Positions 8,744 to 19,095 of a stretch of DNA of 39,691 bases are shown here, piece after piece. The first letter of the stretch is position 1. Each line of letters starts with the position of its first letter. Origin of the DNA: Lachnospiraceae bacterium (lineage in GTDB: Bacteria > Bacillota > Clostridia > Lachnospirales > Lachnospiraceae); NCBI GenBank assembly GCA_024693925.1, contig JAILKH010000099.1, positions 1-39,691 of the forward strand, given 5' to 3'. The notes under the pieces were generated by a model. It saw nothing but the letters and a program-made list of their open reading frames with translations, was not told the DNA's origin and made no database searches. The translations under genes were made by a program, and so were the position numbers.

Positions 8744-9418
8744 ATGGAAAACACTGAAACTGTGAGAATGCCAATGATAGGTGATGAGGCACCGCGATTT
8801 AAAAGTATGACAACAAAGGGTAAAATTAATTTTCCGGAAGATTATAAAGGAAAATGGGTGGTGTTTTTTTCTCATCCTGCTGATTTTACACCCGTATGCA
8901 CGACTGAATTTATTGCTTTGTCAAAGCGAATAAATGAGTTTCGCGAATTGAATACGGAATTGCTGGGATTATCTATTGATTCGTTGCATTCGCATCTTGC
9001 CTGGGCCAAGAGTATTGAAACGATTGATTGGAAAGGCGAGGGAAAGACAGCTGTACCTTTTCCTATAGTGGCTGATATAAGTATGAAGGTTGCAAAGCTC
9101 TACGGAATGTTGCAGACAGTTGCTAAAACTCAGACGGTAAGGGCTGTTTTTATTATTGATCCCGATTCGATAGTGCGTGCGATCCTGTATTATCCCATGT
9201 CTACGGGTAGAAATATAGACGAAATAAAGAGGATTATCTTGTCTTTGCAGAAGCATGATAGAGAGAATATATCTACTCCGGCAGACTGGTGTCCGGGAGA
9301 AGATGTCGTACTTGGATCACCGCTTACGCTTGAAGAAGCCGAAGAAAGAATTAAAAGCGGCGATGATACATTGATCCCTTATGACTGGTATCTGACCGCA
9401 AAAAAGGAGGTTCAGTGA
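8744..9418 (+). CDS. Peroxiredoxin, Prx6-type (AhpC/TSA family)
   Basis: 224 residues, the length of Prx6-type peroxiredoxins. The peroxidatic cysteine is C52 in HPADFTPVCTTEF, with the conserved Thr and Pro before it. A long C-terminal domain follows the thioredoxin fold, as in this subgroup. A second cysteine, C183 in PADWCPGEDV, sits where Prx6 proteins have the PANWxPGD loop; it could act as a resolving cysteine. The enzyme reduces hydrogen peroxide or organic hydroperoxides in the cytosol. An excellent AAGGAGGG site precedes ATG 8744; an ATG at 8740 is out of frame and stops at once. No clear terminator is visible before the non-coding RNA promoter at 9530. Confidence 0.93.
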   Translation: MENTETVRMPMIGDEAPRFKSMTTKGKINFPEDYKGKWVVFFSHPADFTPVCTTEFIALSKRINEFRELNTELLGLSIDSLHSHLAWAKSIETIDWKGEGKTAVPFPIVADISMKVAKLYGMLQTVAKTQTVRAVFIIDPDSIVRAILYYPMSTGRNIDEIKRIILSLQKHDRENISTPADWCPGEDVVLGSPLTLEEAEERIKSGDDTLIPYDWYLTAKKEVQ

Positions 9419-9529
9419 TAAGAACAAATCAAATATTGATAAAAATCACAAAAACCTATATCGGTAACAAATGCAAAATATACATATTTTACAAAATGTC
9501 ATATTATAAAGAAAATGTGATTTTAGGTG

Positions 9530-9557
9530 TTGACATATGAAAAAATGATGATATAAT
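9530..9557 (+). promoter_or_regulatory. Strong sigma-A promoter of the riboswitch/GGA-rich RNA
   Basis: TTGACA at 9530-9535 and TATAAT at 9552-9557 are both perfect and separated by 16 bases. Transcription should begin near 9564. No protein gene starts within the next 500 bases, so this promoter serves the RNA described at 9564-10120. Confidence 0.8.
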
Positions 9558-9577
9558 TAAACCATAAGATGAATTGA

Positions 9578-9676
9578 ATATTGGCAAACTTATCGAAAGG
9601 TAAGGACGCAAAGCTATAGGGTCTAATCCGAAGATCGAAGCCAAGACGTAGAATTTCTTGAGTGTACCGAATAAGT
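9578..9676 (+). promoter_or_regulatory. c-di-GMP-I (GEMM) riboswitch aptamer
   Basis: The conserved core is present: GGCAAAC at 9592-9598-region, a six-pair stem CTTATC/GGTAAG capped by a GAAA tetraloop, then GGACGCAAAGC, the exact GEMM joining sequence. The second arm pairs CTA 9614-9616 and GTCT 9621-9624 with AGAC 9644-9647 and TAG 9649-9651, leaving an asymmetric loop where the tetraloop receptor should be. TGTACCGA near 9663-9670 resembles the closing GGUUACCGA strand. The G before GCAAAC is retained, which favours cyclic di-GMP over cyclic GMP-AMP. The outer P1 helix and 3' arm are longer and less regular than in textbook examples. No terminator follows directly, so the expression platform is not obvious. 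Confidence 0.75.
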
Positions 9677-10083
9677 TCCCAAAAGGGTAAGTCGAAGACG
9701 ATGGATTCTGAAGGGTTCGCAACCGGGAGGAATGAAGTTGGAGAGATGTAGGATAAGACACGGGGATTGGAGTCATAAGGCGAATGTCGGAGTTGGTCGT
9801 AAGACGTGGCTTAATAGGAGGAGGGTATAACCTGAATCGAGAGGAGACATTAGTCGAAAGGCCTATAGTGCTGAGGCAGATCGGAGAGAAGATAGCCAGT
9901 TGCCGGATCGACAGAGGTTGGAGCTTTGGCATACCTGGAAAAGGAGGATTTCTTCAGGAATGGGGAAAAGATGAATTTTCAGGAGAGCGGAGTACCGATT
10001 GAATGTGTAGGATTCGTGATAGTCGCAAAGTTGACCAATATGAGATGAAATCTTATCATCCTATAACGATACATGTTACACCA

Positions 10084-10120
10084 AACAGCCGGGTCTCCCA
10101 CCCCGGCTGTTTTGGTTTTT
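10084..10120 (+). terminator. Intrinsic terminator of the GGA-rich RNA
   Basis: AACAGCCGGG at 10084-10093 pairs perfectly with CCCGGCTGTT at 10102-10111 around an 8-base loop, followed by TTGGTTTTT. It closes the RNA begun at about 9564 and insulates the liv operon, which has its own promoter. Confidence 0.9.
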
Positions 10121-10134
10121 AGGCTATATAGTAC

Positions 10135-10164
10135 TTGACAATATGTTGTATATGAATTTATAAT
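10135..10164 (+). promoter_or_regulatory. Sigma-A promoter of the liv operon
   Basis: TTGACA at 10135-10140 and TATAAT at 10159-10164 are both perfect, with an 18-base spacer. Initiation should fall near 10171, about 70 bases before the livK start codon. Confidence 0.75.
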
Positions 10165-10179
10165 TTAGCAGAAACCAAA

Positions 10180-10212
10180 GGCGGTTCCAATAGGAACCGC
10201 CGGAATTTTTTT
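10180..10212 (+). terminator. Terminator-like hairpin in the livK leader (possible attenuator)
   Basis: GGCGGTTCC at 10180-10188 pairs perfectly with GGAACCGCC at 10193-10201, loop AATA, followed by GGAATTTTTTT. It has the form of an intrinsic terminator, yet lies between the operon promoter and the livK ribosome site, only about 10-40 bases into the transcript. It may attenuate transcription or simply protect the 5' end. Confidence 0.6.
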
Positions 10213-10241
10213 GAAGAAAAGTTTTATAAGAGGAGGAAAAT

Positions 10242-11513
10242 ATGAAAAAGAGATTATTATTGGCAATACTTTCGGCAATGATGGTAGTTTCTCTTGCAGC
10301 TTGTGCAGGAGCTGCACCTGCTCCGGCTGCAAATGATGCTGCGGCAGAAGAAACATCGGATTCTGAGGAAAGTGAAGAAGCCACAGAGGATGAAACAAAG
10401 ACAGAAGGTTCTGCAGATGGAACACTGACAGGTACTTTGAAGCTCGGAATGATAGGACCGCTTACCGGAGCAGCAGCTCTTTATGGAAATGCTGTTACAA
10501 ACGGAACCAAAATTGCAGTTGATGAGATTAATGCTATAAGCAGTTCTTTCCAAATGGAATATCAACCTGAAGATGATGAACATGATGCTGAAAAATCGGT
10601 TAATGCATATAATAAACTTCGTGACTGGGATGTTCAGGCAATAGTAGGTTGTGTTACAACAACACCTTGTGTAGCTGTTGCGGCAGAAGCAAATAATGAC
10701 CGTGTATTTATGCTTACACCGTCAGCATCCGCCACATCTGTAACCGAACAGGGAGATGATGTGTTCCAGTTATGTTTTTCGGATCCTAATCAGGGATCGG
10801 CATCCGCTCAGTATATCAAAGATAATTCCCTGGGAAGTAAAATTGCAATAATATACAATAACTCAGATGTATATTCTACAGGTATTTACCAGACTTTCAG
10901 TGATAAGGCTGCAGAGGTAGGGCTTGAAGTGGTTTCTACAACTACTTTTACGGATGATACCGCAAATGACTTTTCTGTTCAGCTTACAGATGCAAAGAAT
11001 GCAGAAGCCGATCTGATCTTCCTGCCAATTTATTATACCCCTGCATCTCTTATTCTTCAGCAGGCTGATGCAATGGGTTATGATGTGCCTATGTTTGGCG
11101 TTGATGGTATGGATGGTATTTTGGGCCTTGAAGGGTTTGATACTGCGCTTGCGGAAGGTGTAATGTTATTAACACCTTTTTCGGCAGATGCTAAGGATGA
11201 AGCCACTGTAAATTTTGTAACAAAGTATCAGGAAGATTATAAGGAAGTGCCTATTCAGTTTGCAGCGGATGGCTATGATTGTCCTTATGCAATATATGAA
11301 GCTCTTAAGTTTTATGCAGATAAGAATGGCGGTTTGGATGTAACCGGCATGTCAAATGAGGAAATATGTGATATACTTGTTTCTGTATTTTCTGATTCTA
11401 CTTTTTCGGTTGACGGAATTACCGGCGAGGACATGACCTGGACTGCTAACGGTGAAGTTAATAAGGCGCCTAAGGCTGTAGTGATCAAGGACGGAGTATA
11501 CGTAGGTCTTTAA
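10242..11513 (+). CDS. livK: Branched-chain amino acid ABC transporter, substrate-binding lipoprotein
   Basis: 423 residues. The N-terminus KKRLLLAILSAMMVVSLAAC is a lipoprotein signal with cysteine C21 as the lipid-attachment site, followed by an acidic, alanine-rich linker to about residue 60. The mature part is a periplasmic-binding-protein type 1 fold: LKLGMIGPLTGAAALYGNA at its start, VVGCVTTTPCVAVA in the first lobe and VDGMDGILGLEGF near the hinge. It captures leucine, isoleucine, valine or related amino acids outside the membrane for LivHMGF. Ribosome site GAGGAGG precedes the ATG. A hairpin after the gene may raise its level relative to the membrane parts. Exact ligand is not certain, since the same family also binds amides or urea. 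Confidence 0.92.
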   Translation: MKKRLLLAILSAMMVVSLAACAGAAPAPAANDAAAEETSDSEESEEATEDETKTEGSADGTLTGTLKLGMIGPLTGAAALYGNAVTNGTKIAVDEINAISSSFQMEYQPEDDEHDAEKSVNAYNKLRDWDVQAIVGCVTTTPCVAVAAEANNDRVFMLTPSASATSVTEQGDDVFQLCFSDPNQGSASAQYIKDNSLGSKIAIIYNNSDVYSTGIYQTFSDKAAEVGLEVVSTTTFTDDTANDFSVQLTDAKNAEADLIFLPIYYTPASLILQQADAMGYDVPMFGVDGMDGILGLEGFDTALAEGVMLLTPFSADAKDEATVNFVTKYQEDYKEVPIQFAADGYDCPYAIYEALKFYADKNGGLDVTGMSNEEICDILVSVFSDSTFSVDGITGEDMTWTANGEVNKAPKAVVIKDGVYVGL

Positions 11514-18709: not shown

Positions 18710-19053
18710 GGGCTTGTACTGGTTTCGACGGGGGTCTAGCAGTTAGGATAGCCATCCGTGGTCCCATTCCACGTTAAACCGGGGAAATAAATATAAACGC
18801 TAACAATAGAGTAGCTTTAGCAGCCTAAGTGCTGTTTGTCCGCCTTAAGTATCCCGCTGCTTAAGGGTCGGGCATCAAACCTGCGGGGAACTCCCGGGCC
18901 AAAGCTTTGAGGTTCGGGAAGCAAATATGAAGCTACCAAGATGATAAGCCTGTCATTGGGCGTATTGTTGAGGGAATAAAGGTACAATGACTGTGATGGG
19001 AGAGGTCTTAATGAAAGGGCTTTCGGACGCGGGTTCGATTCCCGCCAGGTCCA
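18710..19053 (+). ncRNA. ssrA: Transfer-messenger RNA (tmRNA)
   Basis: Mature ends are set by the acceptor stem: GGGCTTG at 18710-18716 pairs with CAGGTCC at 19046-19052 (two G-U pairs), followed by discriminator A 19053; CCA is not encoded. TACTGGTTTCGACGGGG after the 5' stem is the tmRNA hallmark, and GCGGGTTCGATTCCCGC is the T-arm. The resume codon is GCT 18799, after the expected TAAAC. The tag reads ANNRVALAA and ends at TAA 18826-18828, matching the ALAA protease signal. Pseudoknot-forming GC-rich stretches follow. It rescues stalled ribosomes with SmpB. Length is 344 nt, slightly short but normal. Confidence 0.97.
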
Positions 19054-19095
19054 TAGGAAGAAAGGAGAGCAAAGCTCTCCTTTTTGCATATAAAA
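19037..19095 (+). repeat. 59-bp direct repeat, copy 1 (tmRNA 3' end plus terminator)
   Basis: This stretch, running from the tmRNA T-loop through the terminator to TATAAAA, is identical base for base to 19204-19262. Copy 1 is the functional tmRNA 3' end. Confidence 0.9.
19064..19085 (+). terminator. Intrinsic terminator of ssrA (copy 1)
   Basis: GGAGAGC at 19064-19070 and GCTCTCC at 19074-19080 around AAA, followed by TTTTT. It lies 11 bases past the tmRNA end and belongs to the 59-bp duplicated segment. Confidence 0.9.

Follow-up and report, generated by a model that had tools for sequence, protein, structure and literature searches.

A conserved, apparently stand-alone RNA of Lachnospiraceae with a c-di-GMP-I aptamer split around a folded domain

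The transcription unit and its neighbours

The window, by which we mean the whole stretch of DNA analysed (39,691 nt), contains an apparently non-coding RNA that is preceded by a peroxiredoxin gene and followed by livK, which starts at ATG 10242 and encodes a periplasmic binding protein (Table 1). An earlier note, made from the sequence alone, had read this RNA as a c-di-GMP-I aptamer fused to a stand-alone long RNA in place of a gene. Both promoters it relied on are confirmed: that of the RNA and that of the next operon each match the consensus at all 12 positions, and they are the only perfect ones among the 14 promoter-like sites found in 8800-11200 (6.6 expected). The terminator it called strong stands only in part, since the hairpin is present but the U-run behind it is short and broken (UUUUGGUUUUU). 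The scan returned three terminator-like hairpins against 1.5 expected and reported none between the RNA promoter and the 3' hairpin. Across the 11 relatives, both sides of the stem changed in 2 of 12 pairs (a count of 2 or more came up in 25 of 500 shuffles) and in three cells (1 of 500 shuffles as high). Its loop (10094-10101) carries CUCCCAC in all 11 relatives, and we take this sequence to resemble the C-rich loops that pair with ribosome sites.

The roughly 400 nt described as lacking a credible gene indeed hold no ORF of at least 20 codons common to all 11 members, as judged from ORF lists compared by position rather than by alignment, and we reject a coding RNA. Judged by its sequence features, with an own promoter, a terminator and no conserved ORF, the unit would qualify as a trans-acting riboregulator. 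The minimum-energy fold of the single sequence only mildly beats shuffled sequences (z -1.75; 5 of 100 as stable), so the case rests on the relatives. The pattern GTCATNTN{5,10}AAATGTGAT, which describes the conserved upstream element, occurs exactly once per genome, at the RNA promoter, in all 11 RNA-bearing genomes and in none of the three RNA-less genomes examined.

Table 1 Features of the RNA and its surroundings (positions in the window)
Feature	Position	Strand	Basis
Conserved upstream element GTCATATTATAAAGAAAATGTGAT, possible regulator site	9498..9521	+	Pattern search and upstream alignment
Sigma-70-type promoter TTGACA-16-TATAAT	9530..9557	+	Consensus 12/12; small changes in relatives
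Stand-alone RNA, apparently non-coding	9564..10120	+	Ends predicted from promoter and hairpin; 11/37 genus genomes
5' end strand AUAAGAU, outer part of terminal helix P0	9564..9570	+	Invariant 11/11
AUAUUGGCAA, holding the P1 5' strand; P0 switching strand	9578..9587	+	Invariant 11/11
Aptamer 5' half: P1 5' strand, P2, GGACGCAAAGC core, P3 5' strand	9578..9629	+	RF01051 match
Folded domain within P3, about 260 nt in this RNA	9630..9887	+	Lengths, covariation
Real aptamer 3' half GAAGAUAGCCAGUUGCCGG: P3 3' strand, P1 3' strand (9900-9906)	9888..9906	+	Profile, RF01051
Post-aptamer domain, type A built differently from type B	9907..10030	+	Alignments A1 and A3, type B consensus fold
Anti-P1 strand UUGACCAAUAU plus AUCUUAU, 3' side of P0	10031..10056	+	Invariant 11/11
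Candidate antisense segment AUCUUAUCAUCCU, 13 nt complementary to greA ribosome site	10050..10062	+	Seed search
Terminator-like hairpin, invariant CUCCCAC in loop	10083..10112	+	Hairpin scan and stem covariation
Separate livK operon promoter TTGACA-18-TATAAT, outside the RNA	10135..10164	+	12/12

A blastn search of 61 genomes used the whole RNA as query, and one of the genus's 37 genomes used its 3'-terminal 120 bases. Relatives turned up in 11 of these 37, all Lachnospiraceae MAGs and the window genome among them. One genome (G036) carries two pieces on two contigs that look like both sides of a contig break. The members range from 349 to 559 nt in length. Little or nothing changes in the first 66 bases, in about the last 85 and in a central block of 19 bases, whereas both sequence and length differ elsewhere. 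Ten of the 11 relatives (L037-L046), four of them from rumen samples, are recovered by a 23-base pattern taken from the 3' block; this exact pattern matches no viral contig. When a model of the 3' block was run with strict filters over 392 genomes of the order, it found no true relative in the other genomes; the weak matches L081 and L082 look like mere terminators with no aptamer nearby and were rejected. As far as searched, the RNA does not extend beyond part of one genus, whose other c-di-GMP aptamers (in G008, G024 and contig C85 of G017) are short and ordinary.

On a GreA tree of 30 genomes, from which one RNA-bearing genome (G023) was left out, the ten RNA-bearing rows cluster (3 changes against a shuffled mean of 8.6, with 0 of 500 as low). 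They still fall short of a single clean clade: well-supported branches require two changes or more, partly because G036 shares its GreA with G021, an 82% complete genome in which the RNA was not found.

The gene next downstream is livK in nine relatives and secG in two, always co-directional with the RNA (one secG call, in L041, was made by eye with only the first codons in view). In both genomes with secG (G009 and G032) the livK orthologue sits on a different contig, behind a promoter and leader hairpin of its own and without the RNA, and G004 likewise has livK without the RNA; the promoters were found perfect by scan in G009 and G004 and were read by eye in G032. The RNA is thus separable from liv, and we reject a livK leader as its sole role, given secG downstream in two genomes and liv without the RNA in three. 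Among the 11 genomes, the constant association with one type of gene that a cis riboswitch would show is absent. The idea of a stand-alone RNA instead of a gene therefore holds to the extent that this is a conserved, apparently non-coding unit untied to livK; it fails where it treats the aptamer as a simple add-on.

Several features of the surroundings deserve mention in their own right. The livK leader holds a hairpin, GGCGGUUC...GAACCGCC (10180-10207), followed by a U-run, which recurs in the liv leaders of G009 and G004 and, from its sequence, looks like an attenuator of the liv operon. The livK of G004 (L069, L188) is 86% identical to that of the window and its GreA only 64%, which suggests transfer of the liv operon.

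Upstream neighbours vary among the relatives: L042 has a heavy-metal ATPase and L041, read by eye, its counterpart; seven others have a protein of 268-304 aa, with a sortase family match in both of two tested; the contig of L044 begins at the RNA. The large upstream proteins of L037 and L039, the two tested, match Cna_B/SpaA repeats. A sortase-like gene and large surface proteins thus precede the RNA in relatives and are absent upstream in the window; in a C. difficile study, c-di-GMP reportedly controls sortase substrates. Palindromic repeats of about 85 bases lie upstream of the RNA in G009 and G032 (L021:1221-1307 and L022:1956-2042), and their weak Rfam matches to mir-31, on both strands, are surely spurious.

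An aptamer split around a folded domain

The Infernal run proposed in the earlier note gave a significant result: cmscan placed an RF01051 match at 9573-9653 that scores 43.1 bits against a gathering score of 35 (E 2.5e-5), the only one in the whole genome at E <= 0.001. By sequence, a c-di-GMP-I aptamer is present. In the scan against all Rfam, likewise proposed there, only c-di-GMP-I reaches its gathering score within the RNA, with no other family (ribozymes, OLE, raiA and ROOL included) doing so; the sole other Rfam match in the window is a tmRNA at 18710-19056. RF01051 also scores above its cut-off in all 11 RNA genomes (43.1-63.3 bits), and in the ten relatives only c-di-GMP-I types match within the RNA at E <= 1, all other weak matches lying outside it. 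Two of these ten (L025 and L006) are listed under the sister family RF03167, below its cut-off of 59. We therefore reject any Rfam RNA other than c-di-GMP-I for the window RNA and its ten relatives.

The 5' half of the aptamer, including P2 with its GAAA tetraloop (9589-9604), is invariant or nearly so across the 11 relatives. A G appears to occupy the position that we take to confer selectivity for c-di-GMP against cyclic AMP-GMP. The 3' half distinguishes two groups. In two short members, the RF01051 match spans 120-121 bases, scores 63.3 and 63.2 bits and uses GAAGAUAGCCAGUUGCCGG as the 3' half. In the nine long members the score is 43.1-49.1 bits, and the match runs out in a nearby stretch that is not conserved.

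We scored candidate sites with a 3'-half profile hand-aligned from nine ordinary aptamers from other genomes or loci, leaving out L015 and L018 (for length and an unclear 3' half) as well as L016 and L019. In all 11 RNAs the best site was the 19-base block GAAGAUAGCCAGUUGCCGG at 17.7-18.0 bits (17.7 here). No position scored as high among about 200,000 random ones (maximum 16.0 bits), and the zone just 3' of the 5' half, which Rfam had chosen, reached -1.5 bits here and at most 4.2 in any member. The 3' half taken by Rfam (to 9653) is very probably a decoy. By its sequence, the block at 9888-9906 would provide a canonical 3' half that closes P3 and P1, beginning about 260 nt after the 5' half in the window RNA. 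With this 3' half, the aptamer covers more than half of the RNA and not just its first 90 nt. The identity that the earlier note assigned to the aptamer thus holds and its position does not, nor does the picture of a 5' module fused to a long RNA, because the long RNA lies partly inside the aptamer. Evidently, a large insert in a stem can lead a covariance-model match to misplace half an aptamer, and other split aptamers may be going unnoticed for this reason.

Between the aptamer halves lie 158-260 nt in the nine long members and a hairpin of 45-46 nt in the two short ones. Across all nine long members, the window RNA included, 22 of 60 pairs of the insert showed changes on both sides (mean of 15.0 in shuffles, with 0 of 500 as high), as did 50 cells (22.7 in shuffles, 0 of 500), with 89% of cells able to pair; further pair types did not exceed the shuffles (121 of 500). 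In the five long members of type B (defined below), both sides changed in 19 of 71 pairs (mean 7.4, 0 of 500), with 94% paired. These covariation scores are inflated by related rows, and the slid control is partly favourable by construction because the same alignments had supplied both folds. What sits inside stem P3 is a folded, covarying RNA domain.

Downstream of the aptamer the members fall into type A (four, including the window RNA) and type B (seven). The type B domain contains two near-identical UUGACCUUGAYUUAGGAGR-like hairpins with six-base loops (for example L037:4055-4130). Covariation in its consensus fold, over these seven members, is weaker than in the insert, with both-side changes in 5 of 24 pairs (33 of 500 shuffles as high) and in 10 cells (0 of 500), and with further pair types below the shuffles (481 of 500). 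As a side observation, the paired hairpins of type B, with their UUGACC-UUGAYUU-AGGAGR-like arrangement, look like tandem protein-binding sites.

Predicted competing end helices and a candidate target

The P1 5' strand has a potential alternative partner near the 3' end of the RNA, UUGaCCAAUAU, and pairing with it would exclude P1. AUAUUGGCAA is complementary to UUGACCAAUAU (10031-10041) with one bulged A, and AUAAGAU at the 5' end is predicted to pair with AUCUUAU (10050-10056) at a best pair probability of 0.85-0.99; together these would form the terminal helix P0. ViennaRNA predictions without ligand gave best pair probabilities of 0.89-1.00 for P0 and 0.00-0.07 for P1 in all 11 RNAs, and only 0.00-0.57 for the base of P3, where L041 has an A-C mismatch. 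The models thus allow mutually exclusive P0 and P1 pairing in every one of the 11 RNAs.

In the three RNAs tested, the duplex of the 5' strand with the 3' block was equalled by only 3, 2 and 7 of 2000 shuffled blocks, and by 7, 8 and 5 of 500 when set against the whole rest of the RNA. Since the P0 and P1 strands are invariant, they offer no covariation to confirm the switch. Without ligand, the state with P1 and P3 formed lies 4.9-14.7 kcal/mol above the predicted minimum in the 11 RNAs, and this cost, together with the weak P3 base, means that ligand energy alone may fall short without kinetic trapping.

A seed search revealed one candidate partner: the ribosome site of greA (Pfam GreA), which overlaps the reverse complement of AUCUUAUCAUCCUAUA. 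The full 13-base match occurs in 7 of the 11 RNA genomes (five by script, G035 and G023 read directly) and is weaker in the other four; among 20 of the 26 RNA-less genomes it was found in one, G021. The RNA genomes are close kin, so that the match may reflect shared descent. Two further matches at ribosome sites, both in G026, precede UxuA and GtrA-type genes.

The 11 genomes hold 112 sites for the seed pattern, 11 being the RNA's own; its reversed form has 18 and a permuted control 154, and the count is thus not above chance. Outside the RNA's own loci, 23 sites have the exact 12-nt core; six of them fall at ribosome sites by the script rule, or nine when three greA sites missed by that rule are counted, and they represent three distinct genes; the control gave 2 of 29 among the matches listed. 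No target stands out by gene count against the control pattern in the 11 genomes. From complementarity, the greA ribosome site is a weak candidate for a target and serves as a lead only.

Mode of action and relation to known systems

We favour, with moderate confidence, a stand-alone, c-di-GMP-gated structured RNA whose aptamer is split around a folded domain, whose ends are tied by a switch and which then acts in trans. The RNA would be made from its own promoter to its own terminator, and the aptamer halves would flank a separately folded domain seated on stem P3. Without ligand, the P1 5' strand would pair with the anti-P1 strand just before the terminator, and this pairing, extended by AUAAGAU and AUCUUAU into P0, would tie both ends of the RNA together. 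Transcription would finish the aptamer some 125-135 nt ahead of the anti-P1 strand, so that c-di-GMP could bind during synthesis and lock P1; with P1 locked, neither the 3' segment nor the 5' end would be tied up. Either the released 3' segment or the opened RNA might then act in trans, with pairing to sequences near ribosome sites the likeliest route and protein binding a less likely one. Such a gated RNA would probably be trans-acting. More tentatively, we propose that it is a free RNA whose ends are tied and released by the second messenger, with an effector domain inside P3, so that c-di-GMP would gate action in trans, perhaps on greA, and not on the RNA's own mRNA.

A cis riboswitch with a long leader, in which c-di-GMP would set read-through at the 3' hairpin into livK or secG beside that operon's own promoter, is unlikely. 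It agrees with the shared orientation of RNA and downstream gene in all 11 genomes, with the broken U-run and with the promoter-like site before secG, which is imperfect in L042 (10 of 12). Also in its favour, the GCCGG of P1 is complementary to the CCGGC in the 3' arm of the terminator hairpin (5 bp, by eye), a pairing that would favour a role in cis if it formed; yet the P1 and anti-P1 strands lie outside the hairpin arms. Distance alone is not odd, given that ordinary aptamers of the order lie a median of about 150 nt from the next same-strand ORF, with a range of -20 to 1168 (28 of 30 loci; the best 30 aptamers by score, with crude ORF starts). The exchange of livK for secG in two genomes speaks against a cis leader, as does the perfect promoter of livK, which is kept where the RNA is absent. 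C. difficile c-di-GMP-I riboswitches are described as acting mostly by premature termination (PMC3649979, PMC7699646), and RCd11 as having two tandem start sites (PMC7699646), both of which would suit a cis leader.

We hold it to be quite improbable that the RNA is a c-di-GMP-gated sponge whose repeated hairpins titrate a protein, as Rli55 and EutX do with EutV (PMC8383071). The two near-identical six-base-loop hairpins in 7 of 11 members and the conservation of the inserted domain as structure are what such a sponge would show, but the four type A members are built differently after the aptamer. ANTAR sites follow an A1/G4 loop rule, which the hairpin loops do not seem to fit.

A degenerate or selfish element, that is, a duplicated riboswitch without present function, would accord with the narrow distribution (11 of 37 genomes of one genus, and no true relative elsewhere among the 392 genomes of the order) but is very improbable, because the aptamer core, anti-P1 strand, promoter and terminator loop are near-invariant in 11 genomes while the middle diverges, the insert covaries and each genome has a single copy.

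To our knowledge, riboswitches are almost always read as parts of mRNAs. The absence of an attached protein gene and the split sensor suggest an RNA that acts elsewhere in the cell when c-di-GMP changes. If this is true, a sensor built around another RNA domain, with a free RNA as output, would let one RNA carry the second messenger to many genes. The host genome has 32 GGDEF matches and one such aptamer found (18-53 GGDEF matches in each of the 37 genus genomes).

Compared with the c-di-GMP-I (GEMM-I) family RF01051, the RNA has the same core, GAAA-capped P2, P3 base, P1 and 3' half; it differs in that the halves stand 158-260 nt apart in 9 of 11 members, that it is not tied to one gene and that P1 competes with a strand from the RNA's own 3' end. 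The earlier note had taken the layout as undescribed. This is no longer tenable for a riboswitch placed before a non-coding RNA: in C. difficile, the c-di-GMP-I riboswitches Cdi1_4 and Cdi1_5 precede the antitoxin RNAs RCd11 and RCd12 in one transcript (PMC7699646, PMC11477304), and the same sources list an orphan c-di-GMP-I riboswitch of no known function. Novelty may hold for the split, end-tying form of the aptamer and for the present RNA, neither of which is reported among the open-access matches listed.

The nearest of these systems, Cdi1_4 and Cdi1_5, are described there as a riboswitch with its own premature terminator, followed by an antisense antitoxin RNA with a second promoter; the window RNA, in contrast, is predicted to be one transcript, with no internal terminator-like site reported by the scan, and its aptamer is wrapped around a domain. 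Trans-acting riboswitch RNAs are covered in PMC7266159 and PMC8383071. In SreA/SreB, Rli55 and EutX, all derived from riboswitches, a ligand-sensing RNA likewise acts on another mRNA or protein, but their ligands are SAM or cobalamin, they arise from terminated or processed riboswitch leaders, and the excerpted text of PMC8383071 mentions no split aptamer. The C. difficile c-di-GMP-II aptamer joined to a self-splicing group I ribozyme (PMC3649979) also combines a c-di-GMP aptamer with a second large RNA domain; there, the aptamer is of another class and the ribozyme controls the following ORF, whereas the window RNA has no ribozyme match in Rfam. Finally, the raiA motif, or ModT, is likewise a stand-alone, large, structured clostridial RNA linked to c-di-GMP; by PMC11706538 it alters c-di-GMP levels, with binding of c-di-GMP left open by its authors, and it differs from the window RNA, which has no raiA match in Rfam.
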